Assembly: GCF_019236475.1 (NCBI RefSeq)
Contig: NZ_JAFAIX010000013.1
Location: forward strand, 558,001 to 622,000
Direction: 5' to 3'
Length of the DNA: 64,000 nucleotides
From: Chitinophaga sp.
GTDB taxonomy: Bacteria > Bacteroidota > Bacteroidia > Chitinophagales > Chitinophagaceae
Positions 2,959-57,905 of this stretch are shown here, piece by piece. Made by a program: the position numbers and the translations under genes. Position 1 is the stretch's first letter; each line of letters begins with the position of its first letter. The notes under the pieces were generated by a model. It worked only from the letters and a program-made list of their open reading frames with translations. It did no database searches and had not been told where the DNA came from.

Positions 2959-3029
2959 GTTAGCTTGTCAATTGTAGCTTTTTGCCAAAGCGTAAAGCTA
3001 TCAACATTTGCTGATAAAATAATACGGGA

Positions 3030-3947
3030 CTAACGCATCTGCTGGTATCTACCCGCATTGGGAATATCCATTTTGGCCAGCATTTCCGCTGCGCGCGATT
3101 TTTCTTGTGGCATCGCCTTGGAGAAAATCTTCAGCAGTTCATCGCCTTTCGCAGAATAGAAAGTCTGCATCAGCATTGAGTTCGGAACATCCTGGTAAAT
3201 AGCATATAACAGGTTAATACAATTCATGATAGCGCTACGGCCCGCGTTCACATCTTCATACATTTGATCAAGTCCCATCCGATGGTATTGATACATCACA
3301 TCATGGAAGTTATTAAACTTCACATTCAGCAGATTATCCGTCAGCCAGTAGCGGTTACGTTGACTTTCAAAAGCTTTCCATCCTGACACATCTTTCCCAT
3401 CTGGGGCATTAATCACGATATTCTGGGCTTTTTTGAAGAAACCATCGCCACCACGGGGAGAGAAGGAATCAGCATCCATACCCAGCACCACATACACGTA
3501 ATAGGCCACGATGGCTGTCAGGTTGGCCGCCAGTGGATCGCTACCGCCTACACGGTTATCATTGAACTCCAAGGGTTGGAATTCCGTGTAGCGGAACAAC
3601 ACATTATTATCTTGGAGATTGAATATGCTGGTAACATAGCTGCTGTTATAAACAGGTCGTGTAGCCTGAATGGTTAGTGTGCCGCGATAAACATCTGAGC
3701 TGGGCATTCCTGTCAGGTTCAGCATCACGTTACATTCAATCCTTTCCGACGGTGTATAGGAATCATCTGCCCATCGGCGATTGTTGATAAATTCCTTCAG
3801 GGAATTCTGTAGGGTAGTAAAAATCTTTTTGTCCACACCCTGGAGCTGGTTGGCTACCACTGTTACGTTGGCACGCAGTTCCTGTGCGCTGGCGCCAGTG
3901 TACAGCAATGAACACAGGAGCACCAATACTGATAAGCATTTAAGCAT
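3030..3947 (-). CDS. DUF4835 family periplasmic protein
   Basis: A 305-residue secreted protein with a signal peptide (about residues 1-21, ending GASA) and no lipobox. Motifs typical of DUF4835 include a segment near residue 50 (LKEFINNRRWADD) and the later NRVGGSDPLAANLTAIVAYY. The family is Bacteroidota-specific, of unknown function, and commonly found beside coaBC, as here. Its start overlaps the coaBC stop by 8 bp, suggesting translational coupling. Confidence 0.82.
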   Translation of the reverse strand: MLKCLSVLVLLCSLLYTGASAQELRANVTVVANQLQGVDKKIFTTLQNSLKEFINNRRWADDSYTPSERIECNVMLNLTGMPSSDVYRGTLTIQATRPVYNSSYVTSIFNLQDNNVLFRYTEFQPLEFNDNRVGGSDPLAANLTAIVAYYVYVVLGMDADSFSPRGGDGFFKKAQNIVINAPDGKDVSGWKAFESQRNRYWLTDNLLNVKFNNFHDVMYQYHRMGLDQMYEDVNAGRSAIMNCINLLYAIYQDVPNSMLMQTFYSAKGDELLKIFSKAMPQEKSRAAEMLAKMDIPNAGRYQQMR

Positions 3948-54828: not shown

Positions 54829-54857
54829 TACGATTACGAATTACGAATTACGATTTA
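54829..54857 (-). repeat. TCGTAA iterons, nuoG-nuoH junction
   Basis: Four successive TCGTA(A) units on the minus strand. The first overlaps the last codons of nuoG and supplies its TAA stop. Confidence 0.6.
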
Positions 54858-55945
54858 GGCTTGTTGAAGTCGTCAGAATGTGCCGGTCCGTCAATTTTAG
54901 ACAGATCGATATCCGGTCTGTTTACCTGGCTGGTAGTGTGGATATCGAAAAGTAATTGTGGCTGACGGCCATCCAATACTTCCACCAGAGGATCTTTAGG
55001 TTTCACCATATTTACATAGTGACCCTGAGAAATCACACTGTGACGATCGATATTACGAGGACCTTCAACTACCCAGTCTTTCACGTCTTTCTTCTCGAAA
55101 CGGCAAGTATCACAAATCCAATTTTCTACTTCCCCAAACTGATCCTTACGAGCAGTTACACGGAAGATTTCGTTACCACGCATCCAGAGTACGGTTTTAC
55201 CGCAGCATTTTGGATTCTCGCAGTTACGATGTGCATCCACAGGTTTCAGGAACCATACACGGTTTTTGAAACGAGCCGTTTTATCTGTCAGCGCACCTAC
55301 CGGACAAACATCGATTACGTTACCAATGAAGTCATTGTCCAGGTTTTGCTGGATATAAGTGCTGATTTGAGAATGATCACCTCTATCGAGTATCCCGTGT
55401 TCACGTTTTTCTGTCAGTTGATCAGCGGTGAAAACACAACGGTAGCAAAGGATACAGCGTGTCATGTGCAACTGAATATGCTCGCCGAGATCTACTTTAT
55501 CAAAAGTTCTACGTTTGAATTCGTAGCGGGTGGTTTCAGCACCATGTTCGTAGCTCAGATCTTGCAGGTCGCACTCTCCGGCTTGGTCACATACTGGGCA
55601 ATCCAGCGGGTGATTGATCAACAGGAATTCAACGATACCTTTTCGTGCATCCAGGACTTCTGGAGACGTGATATTCGCCACTTCCATACCATCCATTACG
55701 GTTGTACGGCAGCTAGCTACCAGCTTAGGCATAGGTCTAGGATCTGCTTCGGATCCTTTGGTTACTTTCACGAGGCAAGTACGGCATTTACCGCCACTAC
55801 CCTCCAGTTTAGAGTAATAGCACATTGCCGGTGGAACTACATCTCCCCCGATACCACGCGCCGCGTTGAGAATGGTTGTACCAGGTTCAACCTCCACGGT
55901 GATATTATCAATCTTGACCTTGAACAATTTTTTTTCCTCAGCCAT
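54848..55945 (-). CDS. nuoG: short NADH-quinone oxidoreductase subunit G (2Fe-2S/4Fe-4S part only)
   Basis: A 365-residue electron-transfer subunit. N-terminal 2Fe-2S domain (cysteines in CYYSKLEGSGGKCRTC), HPLDCPVCDQAGECDLQD, MTRCILCYRCV and DVCPVGALTD for the 4Fe-4S clusters. The large molybdopterin-oxidoreductase-like domain of classical NuoG (700-900 residues) is absent, and the frame ends cleanly 26 bp before nuoH. Start at 55945 (MAEEKKLFKV) is 15 bp from the repeat bordering the GxxExxY cassette. Confidence 0.92.
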   Translation of the reverse strand: MAEEKKLFKVKIDNITVEVEPGTTILNAARGIGGDVVPPAMCYYSKLEGSGGKCRTCLVKVTKGSEADPRPMPKLVASCRTTVMDGMEVANITSPEVLDARKGIVEFLLINHPLDCPVCDQAGECDLQDLSYEHGAETTRYEFKRRTFDKVDLGEHIQLHMTRCILCYRCVFTADQLTEKREHGILDRGDHSQISTYIQQNLDNDFIGNVIDVCPVGALTDKTARFKNRVWFLKPVDAHRNCENPKCCGKTVLWMRGNEIFRVTARKDQFGEVENWICDTCRFEKKDVKDWVVEGPRNIDRHSVISQGHYVNMVKPKDPLVEVLDGRQPQLLFDIHTTSQVNRPDIDLSKIDGPAHSDDFNKPKS

Positions 55946-55959
55946 TGTATATTTTTTTT

Positions 55960-56464
55960 CTCGCAAAGTTCGCAAAGGAACTAAGGAGTAAGTTTGATTT
56001 TTAACTGATTTTTAATATAACCCGTTAACTATTCTATGAATGCCATGCTTCAACAATGAAACATTAAAGTTCACTAACATTCCTAATTTCAGATTCGTCA
56101 GTTTCAGATATGTCAATACTTGTTTAAAATGTACATTTCCCAATTCTTCCACTGATTTAATCTCAATAAGAACTTTTTCATTTACCAGAAGATCTATTCG
56201 AAACGCCTTATCTAATTTCACCTCATCATGAACAAGAGTAATTTCCTTTTGGCGAATAACATCAAAGCCTCTCTTTCTTAGTTCATAACATAGGATCTCC
56301 TCATACACTGATTCGAACAATCCTGGTCCATACTTTTTATGAATGTCAAAGCAAACATTTAAAATCTCCTTCGAGATTACATTTTCCTCCATGGATGAAA
56401 TATCTAAAGGTTAACAATACTGGGGAAAATCTTTGCGTCTCTGCTCCTTCGCGCCCTTTGCGAG
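55960..56464 (-). mobile_element. putative GxxExxY cassette with terminal inverted repeats
   Basis: About 505 bp between nuoF and nuoG. The ends carry 20-bp imperfect inverted repeats (55960-55979 and 56445-56464; 17/20 complementary) built of CTTTGCG-type units; the right end has further degenerate copies to 56431. The only gene inside is the GxxExxY gene, and no transposase is present. No target duplication is visible. Mobility is inferred. Confidence 0.5.
56012..56392 (-). CDS. GxxExxY protein (PD-(D/E)XK-like)
   Basis: A 126-residue protein with G24-x-x-E27-x-x-Y30 (GPGLFESVYEE), the namesake motif. Later, D67 (FRIDLLV) and E77-I-K79 (VLIEIKS) give a D-x9-ExK pattern of PD-(D/E)XK nuclease-like folds, with Q91 in the next helix. 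The family is common in Bacteroidota and other phyla and has no established role. It is oriented with the nuo operon but unrelated to complex I. Confidence 0.85.
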   Translation of the reverse strand: MEENVISKEILNVCFDIHKKYGPGLFESVYEEILCYELRKRGFDVIRQKEITLVHDEVKLDKAFRIDLLVNEKVLIEIKSVEELGNVHFKQVLTYLKLTNLKLGMLVNFNVSLLKHGIHRIVNGLY

Positions 56465-56468
56465 CAAC

Positions 56469-57827
56469 CTACACAGCAGCAGGCACTGGCAGTGGGTCTG
56501 CGTAATGGGCCAAGCCGAAATTACGGCGCTGCGCTTCATCCGGATTTTTCACATGCCATTCAAATTCATCACGGAAGTGACGGATAGCTGCTGCTACTGG
56601 CCATGCTGCTGCATCGCCGAGTGGGCAGATGGTATTACCCTCGATTTTACGCTGGATATCCCAGAGCAGATCGATGTCACTCATTTTACCTTTTCCGTAT
56701 TCAATATTTTTCAGCACTTTTTCCATCCAACCGGTACCTTCACGGCATGGGCTACATTGACCGCAGCTTTCGTGGTGGTAGAAACGTGCAAATGTGAGCG
56801 TGTTGCGAACAATACACTGATCTTCATCCATTACGATAAAACCGCCAGAACCCAGCATGGAACCTGTTGCAAAACCGCCATCTGCCAAACCTTCATATGT
56901 CATCATACGGGTTTCGCCTTTAGCTGTTTTCAGCAGAAGATTGGCAGGGAGCACTGGAACGGAAGATCCACCAGGGATACAAGCCTTCAGGCGTTTACCA
57001 TTTTTGATACCACCGCAGTATTCTTCAGAGAAGATGAATTCCTCTACGGAGATATTCATTTCAATTTCGTAAACACCCGGTTTGTTGATATTACCGCAAG
57101 CGGAGATCAGTTTAGTACCAGTAGATTTACCAGTGCCCAGTTTGATATATTCATCTGCGCCGTAGTTAATGATAGGTACTACAGCAGCCAGTGTTTCAAC
57201 GTTGTTTACTACGGTAGGGCACTGCCAGAGGCCTTTTACCGCAGGGAATGGAGGTTTGATACGTGGATTACCGCGTTTACCTTCCAGGGATTCAATGAGC
57301 GCAGTTTCTTCACCACAGATATAGGCGCCAGCACCACGCTGAACGTAGATTTCCAGGTCGAAACCAGTTCCTTGGATGTTTTTACCTAACCATCCGTTAT
57401 TTTTTGCTTCCGCGATAGCTTGTTCCAGGATATCAGGAATCCAAGCATATTCACCACGGATATATATATAGCAGGCATTAGCGCCCAGGGTAAAGCTGGA
57501 GATCAGCAATCCTTCGATGAGGAGGTGAGGGATAAACTCCATAAGGTAGCGGTCTTTGAACGTACCTGGCTCGGATTCATCCGCATTGCAAACGAGGTAA
57601 CGGGGAACGCCTTCTGGTTTTGCAATGAAGCTCCATTTCATGCCGGTAGGGAAGCCAGCTCCACCACGGCCTCTGAGACCACTTTTCTTCACTTCTTCCA
57701 GTACAGCTTCTGGGCCCATGCTTTTCAGCGCCTTTTCCGCTGCCGCATAACCGCCTTTGCTCCGGTAAGTATCATAATACCGGATGCCTTCAATATGTGC
57801 GTTTTCTAACAGTAATTTGCGTCCCAT
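56469..57827 (-). CDS. nuoF: NADH-quinone oxidoreductase subunit F
   Basis: A 452-residue NADH-oxidising subunit with FMN. GRGGAGFPTGMKW binds FMN/NADH; ESCGQCSPCREG and TICPLGDA hold cluster N3. Start at the ATG at 57827 (MGRKLLLENAHIEG) with AGAAGAAA before it; an upstream TTG at 57851 is less likely. Five bases separate the stop codon from the repeat that bounds the GxxExxY cassette. Confidence 0.95.
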   Translation of the reverse strand: MGRKLLLENAHIEGIRYYDTYRSKGGYAAAEKALKSMGPEAVLEEVKKSGLRGRGGAGFPTGMKWSFIAKPEGVPRYLVCNADESEPGTFKDRYLMEFIPHLLIEGLLISSFTLGANACYIYIRGEYAWIPDILEQAIAEAKNNGWLGKNIQGTGFDLEIYVQRGAGAYICGEETALIESLEGKRGNPRIKPPFPAVKGLWQCPTVVNNVETLAAVVPIINYGADEYIKLGTGKSTGTKLISACGNINKPGVYEIEMNISVEEFIFSEEYCGGIKNGKRLKACIPGGSSVPVLPANLLLKTAKGETRMMTYEGLADGGFATGSMLGSGGFIVMDEDQCIVRNTLTFARFYHHESCGQCSPCREGTGWMEKVLKNIEYGKGKMSDIDLLWDIQRKIEGNTICPLGDAAAWPVAAAIRHFRDEFEWHVKNPDEAQRRNFGLAHYADPLPVPAAV

Positions 57828-57905
57828 TTTCTTCTTATAGTTTGACGACAATCTTCCTTCTGAAAGCTGTCATCAACAGATTTGTGATGTAATGATTTTT
57901 GACCA

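Follow-up and report, generated by a model that had tools for sequence, protein, structure and literature searches.

The nuoF–nuoG junction of the window (the whole 64-kb stretch of DNA analyzed here) raises the question of how a small nuclease-like gene, enclosed by inverted arrays of short repeats, comes to lie inside an operon, and whether the gene itself or another factor moves it. The gene codes for a GxxExxY protein; such proteins are common, and we know of no function assigned to them. Searches of open-licence papers with the family name and its accessions turned up no activity of any GxxExxY protein; in the accessible portions of their text the name occurs only in passing in PMC8934634 and PMC12085832, and the Pfam accession PF13366 appears in PMC9756366.

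The cassette and its protein

The locus comprises the following features:

56469..57851, minus strand: nuoF, the upstream neighbor; open frame intact
56431..56467: nuoF-side arm, TTGCTCGCAAAGGGCGCGAAGGAGCAGAGACGCAAAG on the minus strand; best-matching core 56445-56467
56012..56392, minus strand: GxxExxY gene, 126 aa, with PF13366 and TIGR04256 profile matches
55957..55988: nuoG-side arm, inverted, TTTCTCGCAAAGTTCGCAAAGGAACTAAGGAG on the plus strand; best-matching core 55957-55979
54848..55945, minus strand: nuoG, the downstream neighbor; start read as the ATG at 55945; open frame intact
55957..56467, minus strand: whole cassette (arm, gene, arm), the exchangeable unit of the nuoF–nuoG junction; a sister genome, G016, has another lineage here, in gene and arms

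The initial annotation had described a nuclease-fold gene bracketed by CTTTGCG-type inverted repeats that spares both neighbors and keeps the order and polarity of the operon. This description is borne out: nuoF, the GxxExxY gene and nuoG follow one another on the minus strand, with nuoF ending at 56469, and the arms are inverted arrays of CGCAAAG/CTTTGCG-type units whose cores form the best inverted repeat of the region (23 nt, 83% complementary), located where the annotation had put it. Within the window, CGCAAAGNNCGCAAAG has one exact and one single-mismatch match, which are the two arms; at up to three mismatches there are eight matches, a count that does not stand out from chance (mean 5.5; 8 attained in 17 of 100 shuffles). 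As to the further GxxExxY genes that the annotation proposed to look for in the genome, a TIGR04256 profile search finds the window gene alone, with PF13366 adding a second, marginal match on C12 (23.1 bits, cut-off 22).

The window protein matches TIGR04256 over its full length (135.7 bits, cut-off 35, E 8.5e-40) and PF13366 with 132.5 bits (cut-off 22, E 1.2e-38), and no other Pfam family. It has the D...ExK active site of the PD-(D/E)XK nucleases on an α-β core, with E27, D67, E77-x-K79 and Q91xxxY95 all intact; among 141 sequences, E77 and K79 are conserved in 141, D67 in 140, E27 in 139, Y95 in 137 and Q91 in 136. A structure model of residues 2-126 (mean pLDDT 95.8) finds its best fold match in SSO0001 (4ic1; Z 9.6), which we take to be a Cas4 protein, followed by 3ijm, a restriction-like protein of Spirosoma (Z 8.8). 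The next matches, at Z 6.7-7.2, include Cas4-like proteins, BamHI (7.1), Hjc resolvases (7.0) and LHK-Exo (6.7), families missing from this match list not being counted as absent. Foldseek alone gives no E-value below 0.001 (best 3.3e-3), and a sequence search of the PDB returns no relative of the protein up to E 1. The protein thus shares with the Cas4/RecB/λ-exonuclease nucleases the core fold (at Z 9.6 for 4ic1 and 6.7 for LHK-Exo), the D...ExK residues and the QxxxY motif; it differs in consisting, at 126 residues, of the core alone, and the likeness is tempered by the weak Foldseek result and by 3ijm, BamHI and Hjc coming close behind. As the Z-score of 3ijm lies within 1 of the best match, the assignment leans partly on the QxxxY motif. 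Accordingly, the model points to a PD-(D/E)XK nuclease that leans, short of proof, to the Cas4/RecB branch.

Turnover at the nuoF–nuoG junction

We fetched 110 nuoF–nuoG junctions from the family, taken not at random but as the top-scoring nuoF places listed for 236 nuoF-bearing genomes; 106 were readable, the other four (L184, L185, L194 and L222) having no readable nuoG. Among these 106 best-scoring places, 66 have a gap of at most 210 bp with no recognized gene, 20 hold a GxxExxY gene (with interrupted frames in L112 and L213), 12 a four-helix-bundle gene of the 23S_rRNA_IVP family (10 by profile; L093 and L157, broken or truncated, by eye), two a DUF559 gene (L108 by Pfam, L151 by eye, both with frames that look broken) and six some other gene (L147, L165, L191, L176, L187 and L198). 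Pfam assignments cover L153, L159, L108, L187, L147 and L176; the remaining four-helix-bundle genes rest on a profile seeded with two of these, and L093, L157, L151, L165, L191 and L198 were assigned by eye. In genera other than that of the window, two cassettes at the junction match PF05635. The intact cassette genes of these families run in the direction of the operon. Among the short gaps, L156 has distinct inverted arms that enclose no gene (score 40), and L088 and L155 have weaker arms.

The occupants other than GxxExxY are varied. The four-helix-bundle genes found by profile (L149, L153, L159, L166, L168, L169, L177, L197, L215 and L221) mostly have arms of tandem heptamer-like arrays, e.g., AAAAGTCAAAATTC, and the two DUF559 genes have arms of the CCCCTAAAGGGG type. 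L187 holds a HEPN protein with a nucleotidyltransferase-like partner and L147 an AAA_15 ATPase by Pfam, with L165 and L191 similar by eye and the genes of L176 and L198 unassigned. Elsewhere, DUF559 matches, including L323, L327, L329, L331 and L334, often lie inside open frames of more than 800 codons, as if the domain were fused in frame to larger genes.

Within the genus of the window genome, nuoF is matched in 78 of 79 genomes and a GxxExxY gene, by profile search, in 20 of 72. The 34 genus junctions that were read are mostly the closest of the 78, and 13 of them contain GxxExxY; counted over genomes of known status, the nuo site is occupied by it in 13 of 74. The proteins at this site belong to more than one clade. 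One nuo-site clade (98% support), which includes the genus genome G049, has arms in the opposite orientation. A single origin of the nuo-site copies was considered and rejected: the tree, built quickly from few columns and with many forks left open, requires eight label changes, at least three of them forced by starred branches, a count that is inflated because L137 and L139 are adjacent to nuo by their coordinates yet not so labelled. These two form one clade with L134, L059, L170, L164 and L207 (98% support).

Comparison of sister species reveals exchange. Between the window genome and G016, nuoF and nuoG have diverged to a dS of 0.36 and 0.47, whereas the GxxExxY genes at the same junction show synonymous saturation (pS 0.76, dN 0.35) and have different arms; G017 and G022 repeat this pattern of different cassette lineages between similar neighbors. 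As a different lineage, in gene and arms, thus sits between closely related neighbors, the cassette has been exchanged as a unit. In contrast to these pairs, G011, G037 and G041 carry true orthologues (dS 0.54-0.57), whose dN/dS of 0.04-0.05 implies that the cassette is under selection where it is kept. Further, the junctions of G054 and G059 are scars consisting of the left arm, the last codons of the gene and the right arm, and other genus junctions are scarred too. The nuoF–nuoG junction is therefore a recurrent cassette site at which the cassette is exchanged, deleted and regained. The search for an empty site in relatives that the initial annotation had proposed yields empty, scarred and differently filled states, and its view of the gene as a mobile-looking cassette holds in so far as this is a one-gene unit with its own inverted ends and a history of turnover. 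The implied fresh insertion into a virgin site does not hold for this clade, since sister species keep remnants of GxxExxY cassettes. The junction, found full, empty, scarred or exchanged in closely related species, offers a natural laboratory for such elements.

Lineage-specific arms and gene-free palindromes

Inverted arms extend well beyond the nuo site. In a set of 134 non-redundant GxxExxY genes, the 132 with flanks of at least 120 bp have a median score of 29.5 for the best inverted flank match as compared to 17 for flanks swapped between loci, and in 81 of them the score lies above the 95th percentile of the swapped flanks. Judged in this way, each set against its own swaps, 7 of 101 neighboring genes from these loci pass that percentile, as against 29 of 39 four-helix-bundle genes and 9 of 13 DUF559 genes, the latter set being confined to proteins of at most 400 aa with flanks that were not short. 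Direct, i.e., non-inverted, flank matches are also raised in 39 of the 132 GxxExxY genes. The arms are composed of units of several types, namely CGCAAAG, CGCAGCG, CGCAACG, CACAGAG, CACAAAG, CACAGATT, CACGAATT, CACATAG and GTCTGAAC..GGATT.

For the genes with recognizable arms, which the comparison covers (91 of 133, with an inverted score of at least 24), the 5-mer similarity of the arms correlates with protein identity over 4075 different-genome pairs (rho 0.51; maximum of 500 permutations 0.13), and the correlation persists with the nuo-site genes excluded (67 genes; rho 0.43, permutation maximum 0.12). Paralogues within one genome bear different arms. Over 15 same-genome pairs, again without nuo-site genes, the arms resemble each other no more closely (0.145) than those of identity-matched pairs from different genomes (0.186). 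Arm sequence tracks the protein lineage and not the host genome, and as the arms follow the protein, gene and arms behave as one heritable unit. Outside the nuo site, cassettes are in sense with both neighbors in 67 of the 77 places with co-directional neighbors (97 scored), the strands of the neighbors being taken from open frames rather than annotated genes. Two individual loci deserve mention. In Gelidibacter algens (L074), two adjacent GxxExxY genes (2411-2788 and 3001-3378) coding for near-identical proteins lie between direct copies of a CTCTGCG array. On a contig filed under a Streptomyces griseus MAG (L063), the cassette protein is paired in the tree with a protein from Chitinophagaceae; the host label is probably a binning error.

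The units also occur away from the gene. In the 6.48-Mb window genome, CGCAAAGNCGCAAAG has 26 exact matches and CGCAAAGNNNGCAAAG five, against none in either case for the reversed control; the unit is therefore over-represented, yet not confined to the GxxExxY gene. At up to two mismatches the excess is small (69 versus 47). Inspected by eye, the genomic matches to CGCAAAGNNCGCAAAG at zero or one mismatch are mostly arrays lying between genes, and many have inverted units at most 200 bp away with no intervening gene; those in or at long open frames (L008, L009, L019 and L024) look like chance. There are thus dispersed, hairpin-forming, gene-free inverted doublets made of the same units, resembling REPINs and equipped with terminal inverted repeats. 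In G041 and G028 these palindromes measure about 150-160 bp from the first to the last CGCAAAG unit (206 in L355), and copies are 87-99% identical in the better orientation, except L353 and L355. In G016 they measure 180-205 bp and have outer arms of the same type as the nuo cassette of that genome. It is only in the G016 group that cassette arms match the palindromes of their own genome best; the arms of the G041 cassette match G016 elements equally to their own, and those of G028 match poorly. Between orthologous copies of two sister species, the central segment of the palindrome is flipped in two cases (L354/L362, L357/L361), which suggests recombination or strand switching within the hairpin.

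Twenty palindromes were fetched and five of these looked up in sister genomes. Four prove absent from the orthologous place of one or more relatives: L358 from that of G028 and G037, L360 of G011, L363 of G041 and L369 of the window genome. For the fifth, L365, none of the genomes searched was found to lack it. At the four aligned sites there is no clear target-site duplication, and the alignments therefore do not demonstrate insertion as such; the sites without the element have native intergenic sequence in its place, and at those of L358 and L360 this includes, by eye, a terminator-like hairpin where the relative has the element.

By raw counts, the load of these repeats goes with the presence of the gene. 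We counted exact CGCAAAGNNNGCAAAG copies in 79 genus genomes, with a threshold of at least four, which is reached by G000 (the window genome; 5), G016 (36), G064 (4), G364 (11), G011 (15), G037 (16), G028 (36) and G041 (37). All eight are nuo-site carriers, i.e., 8 of 13 carriers as compared to 0 of 61 known non-carriers (raw Fisher 9e-8); a further five genomes (G359-G363), outside the GxxExxY scoring, all have fewer than four copies. The reversed control gives 0-3 copies per genome, except 5 in G037, so the low counts of G000 and G064 weigh little, and two carriers, G017 and G018, show none at all under this pattern. In the family, 28 of the 30 genomes with at least four copies of CGCAAAGNCGCAAAG have GxxExxY versus 150 of 244 overall (raw Fisher 4e-5), G121 (16 copies) and G168 (5) being those with repeats and no detected gene. 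Once relatedness is corrected for, the genus offers five pairs, 2.5 in favor and 0 opposed (median p 0.25), and the family 11, about 3-4 in favor and 0.1 opposed (median p 0.125-0.25): the direction is the same and, with too few contrasts, not significant, so that the association is suggestive. These counts across genomes cover CGCAAAG, one of several repeat types that also include GTCTGAA and CACAGAG. The initial annotation had tied the repeats to GxxExxY genes, a link that fails within the genome, where they are common away from the gene, and survives, as a suggestive one, across genomes, where they are abundant almost only alongside it. Given the latter pattern, gene-free satellites of the cassette fit better than unrelated repeats.

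A candidate mechanism and its alternatives

Taken together, we lean towards a two-part repeat system comparable to REPIN/RAYT and built on a PD-(D/E)XK nuclease gene. One part would be the small Cas4/RecB-like nuclease gene in its inverted arrays of short units, inherited and exchanged as a unit; the other would be the gene-free palindromes of like units scattered between genes. The nuclease might recognize its cognate arms, which would probably take a hairpin or cruciform shape, and cut either the arms or a hairpin-rich intergenic target, whereupon repair could copy the element into the break. Copying of this kind would distribute palindromes in trans and also swap one cassette for another at an already occupied site. 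Placement in sense within an operon would provide expression from the operon and, we propose, be tolerated since it leaves the reading frames intact. Mobilization by the GxxExxY protein itself, one of the two options raised in the initial annotation, is accordingly what we infer. Repair-templated copying is more in line with the replaced hairpins and the missing target duplications than a classical transposase would be, with four sites being few.

If this is true, such a system would give a possible origin for one abundant class of intergenic palindromes. The pairing of arms with protein lineage would further predict a DNA partner for each GxxExxY protein, and the REPIN-like systems would be extended from HUH transposases to a nuclease fold, for which we know of no earlier link to them. 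More tentatively, and on balance doubtfully, lone PD-(D/E)XK nucleases of Cas4/RecB type might form a widespread class of minimal mobile units without a transposase, each reading lineage-specific arrays, copying palindromes about the genome and exchanging its own cassette at favored operon junctions; with the IVP and DUF559 genes doing likewise with their own arms, numerous common short repeats in Bacteroidota would be satellites of such genes.

The REPIN/RAYT systems, in the accessible text of PMC3116915 and PMC8049555, comprise a single-copy gene with adjacent repeats and gene-free inverted hairpin doublets, the repeats being commoner where the gene is present and their diversity being read as gene–repeat co-evolution; that of PMC3733652 gives their palindromes a GTAG or CGTC tag. 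Common to both systems are one gene with repeats and gene-free hairpin doublets between genes. The present cassette differs in coding for a PD-(D/E)XK nuclease instead of a Y1/HUH transposase, in arms that are arrays of several 7-8 nt units, and in being exchanged at a fixed operon site, with many GxxExxY paralogues in other genomes. As its gene belongs to PF13366 and not to the Y1 transposases, it would work like REPIN/RAYT without being a member. Among the open-licence papers listed on repeats and REPINs, titles and abstract openings contain nothing linking the present repeats to GxxExxY.

The palindromes could instead be MITE-like and moved by some other enzyme, with GxxExxY a hitch-hiker caught between two inverted copies. 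They do share with MITEs the short, gene-free, palindromic form, the near-identical copies and the variable presence between sister species, and this account draws on the excess of gene-free over gene-bearing copies in repeat-rich genomes, on G121 and G168 with repeats and no detected gene, and on the four-helix-bundle and DUF559 genes, of other Pfam families, in the same kind of bracket. However, a hitch-hiker should share the local repeat type, whereas the arms track the GxxExxY lineage and differ between paralogues; unlike for MITEs, none of the four aligned sites has a clear target-site duplication, and native intergenic sequence takes the place of the palindromes there; and the searches identified no transposase partner, with no RAYT found in five of the eight repeat-rich genus genomes. 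We therefore hold it to be unlikely. Much less probable still is an element acting through RNA, the arms pairing in the operon mRNA, the stem being cut and the cassette persisting as a tolerated insert like S23p. The 23S rRNA intervening sequences are also small elements with one short gene inside an operon, and genes of their 23S_rRNA_IVP family occupy this nuo junction elsewhere, in other genera (the Coxiella IVS is described in the accessible text of PMC4990558 and IVP in rRNA inserts in that of PMC11270868); the prevalent sense placement of the cassettes at non-nuo sites would also suit such an element. The window gene differs in being of PF13366 and in lying in a protein-coding operon and not in rRNA, and the cassettes lack signs of pairing at the RNA level: the arm mismatches show no preference for G-U on the RNA strand (88 versus 92 for GxxExxY, 25 versus 20 for the four-helix-bundle genes), which led us to reject such pairing, and an rRNA context was likewise rejected as, in 20 cassette loci sampled from relatives, no Rfam family attains its gathering score. 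This account alone would also leave the scattered gene-free palindromes unexplained.

We give similarly little credence to the view that an insertion hot spot has taken up a small gene for defence or addiction, with the arms as mere hairpin terminators or recombination sites. HEPN/nucleotidyltransferase-like and AAA_15 genes, of kinds frequent in defence or toxin–antitoxin loci, do occupy the same junction (L187 and L147), and the conserved active site and the purifying selection in three close orthologues would be in keeping with it; against this, the arms are lineage-specific unit arrays with dispersed gene-free copies and not generic terminators, and a search with the window protein finds matches in 8 of 72,556 plasmid records and in none of 50,697 phage records. 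The idea of an ordinary, vertically inherited operon gene with bracketing repeats of no role, to which the same low dN/dS and the occupancy of 13 of the 34 genus junctions read might appeal, is scarcely credible. It is contradicted by the junction states, the tree and the exchange between sister species: the nuo site is occupied in only 13 of 74 genus genomes and 20 of the 106 best-scoring family junctions, its copies are spread over at least two clades, in one of which the arms point the other way, sister species hold different cassette lineages, and the arm matching is far above the controls.

Returning to the two-part system that we favor, a RAYT was also weighed as the mover and rejected. 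PF01797 (Y1_Tnp), the RAYT family, is present in 19 of the 79 genus genomes, and the PF01797 search finds none in G000, G016, G011, G364 and G064, while each of the other repeat-rich genomes, G028, G041 and G037, carries a single Y1_Tnp gene and may thus have a RAYT as its mover. G363, a genome that is 65% complete, is unlike the other genus genomes searched in carrying nine near-identical Y1_Tnp genes (L413), which look like an active IS200-type element.
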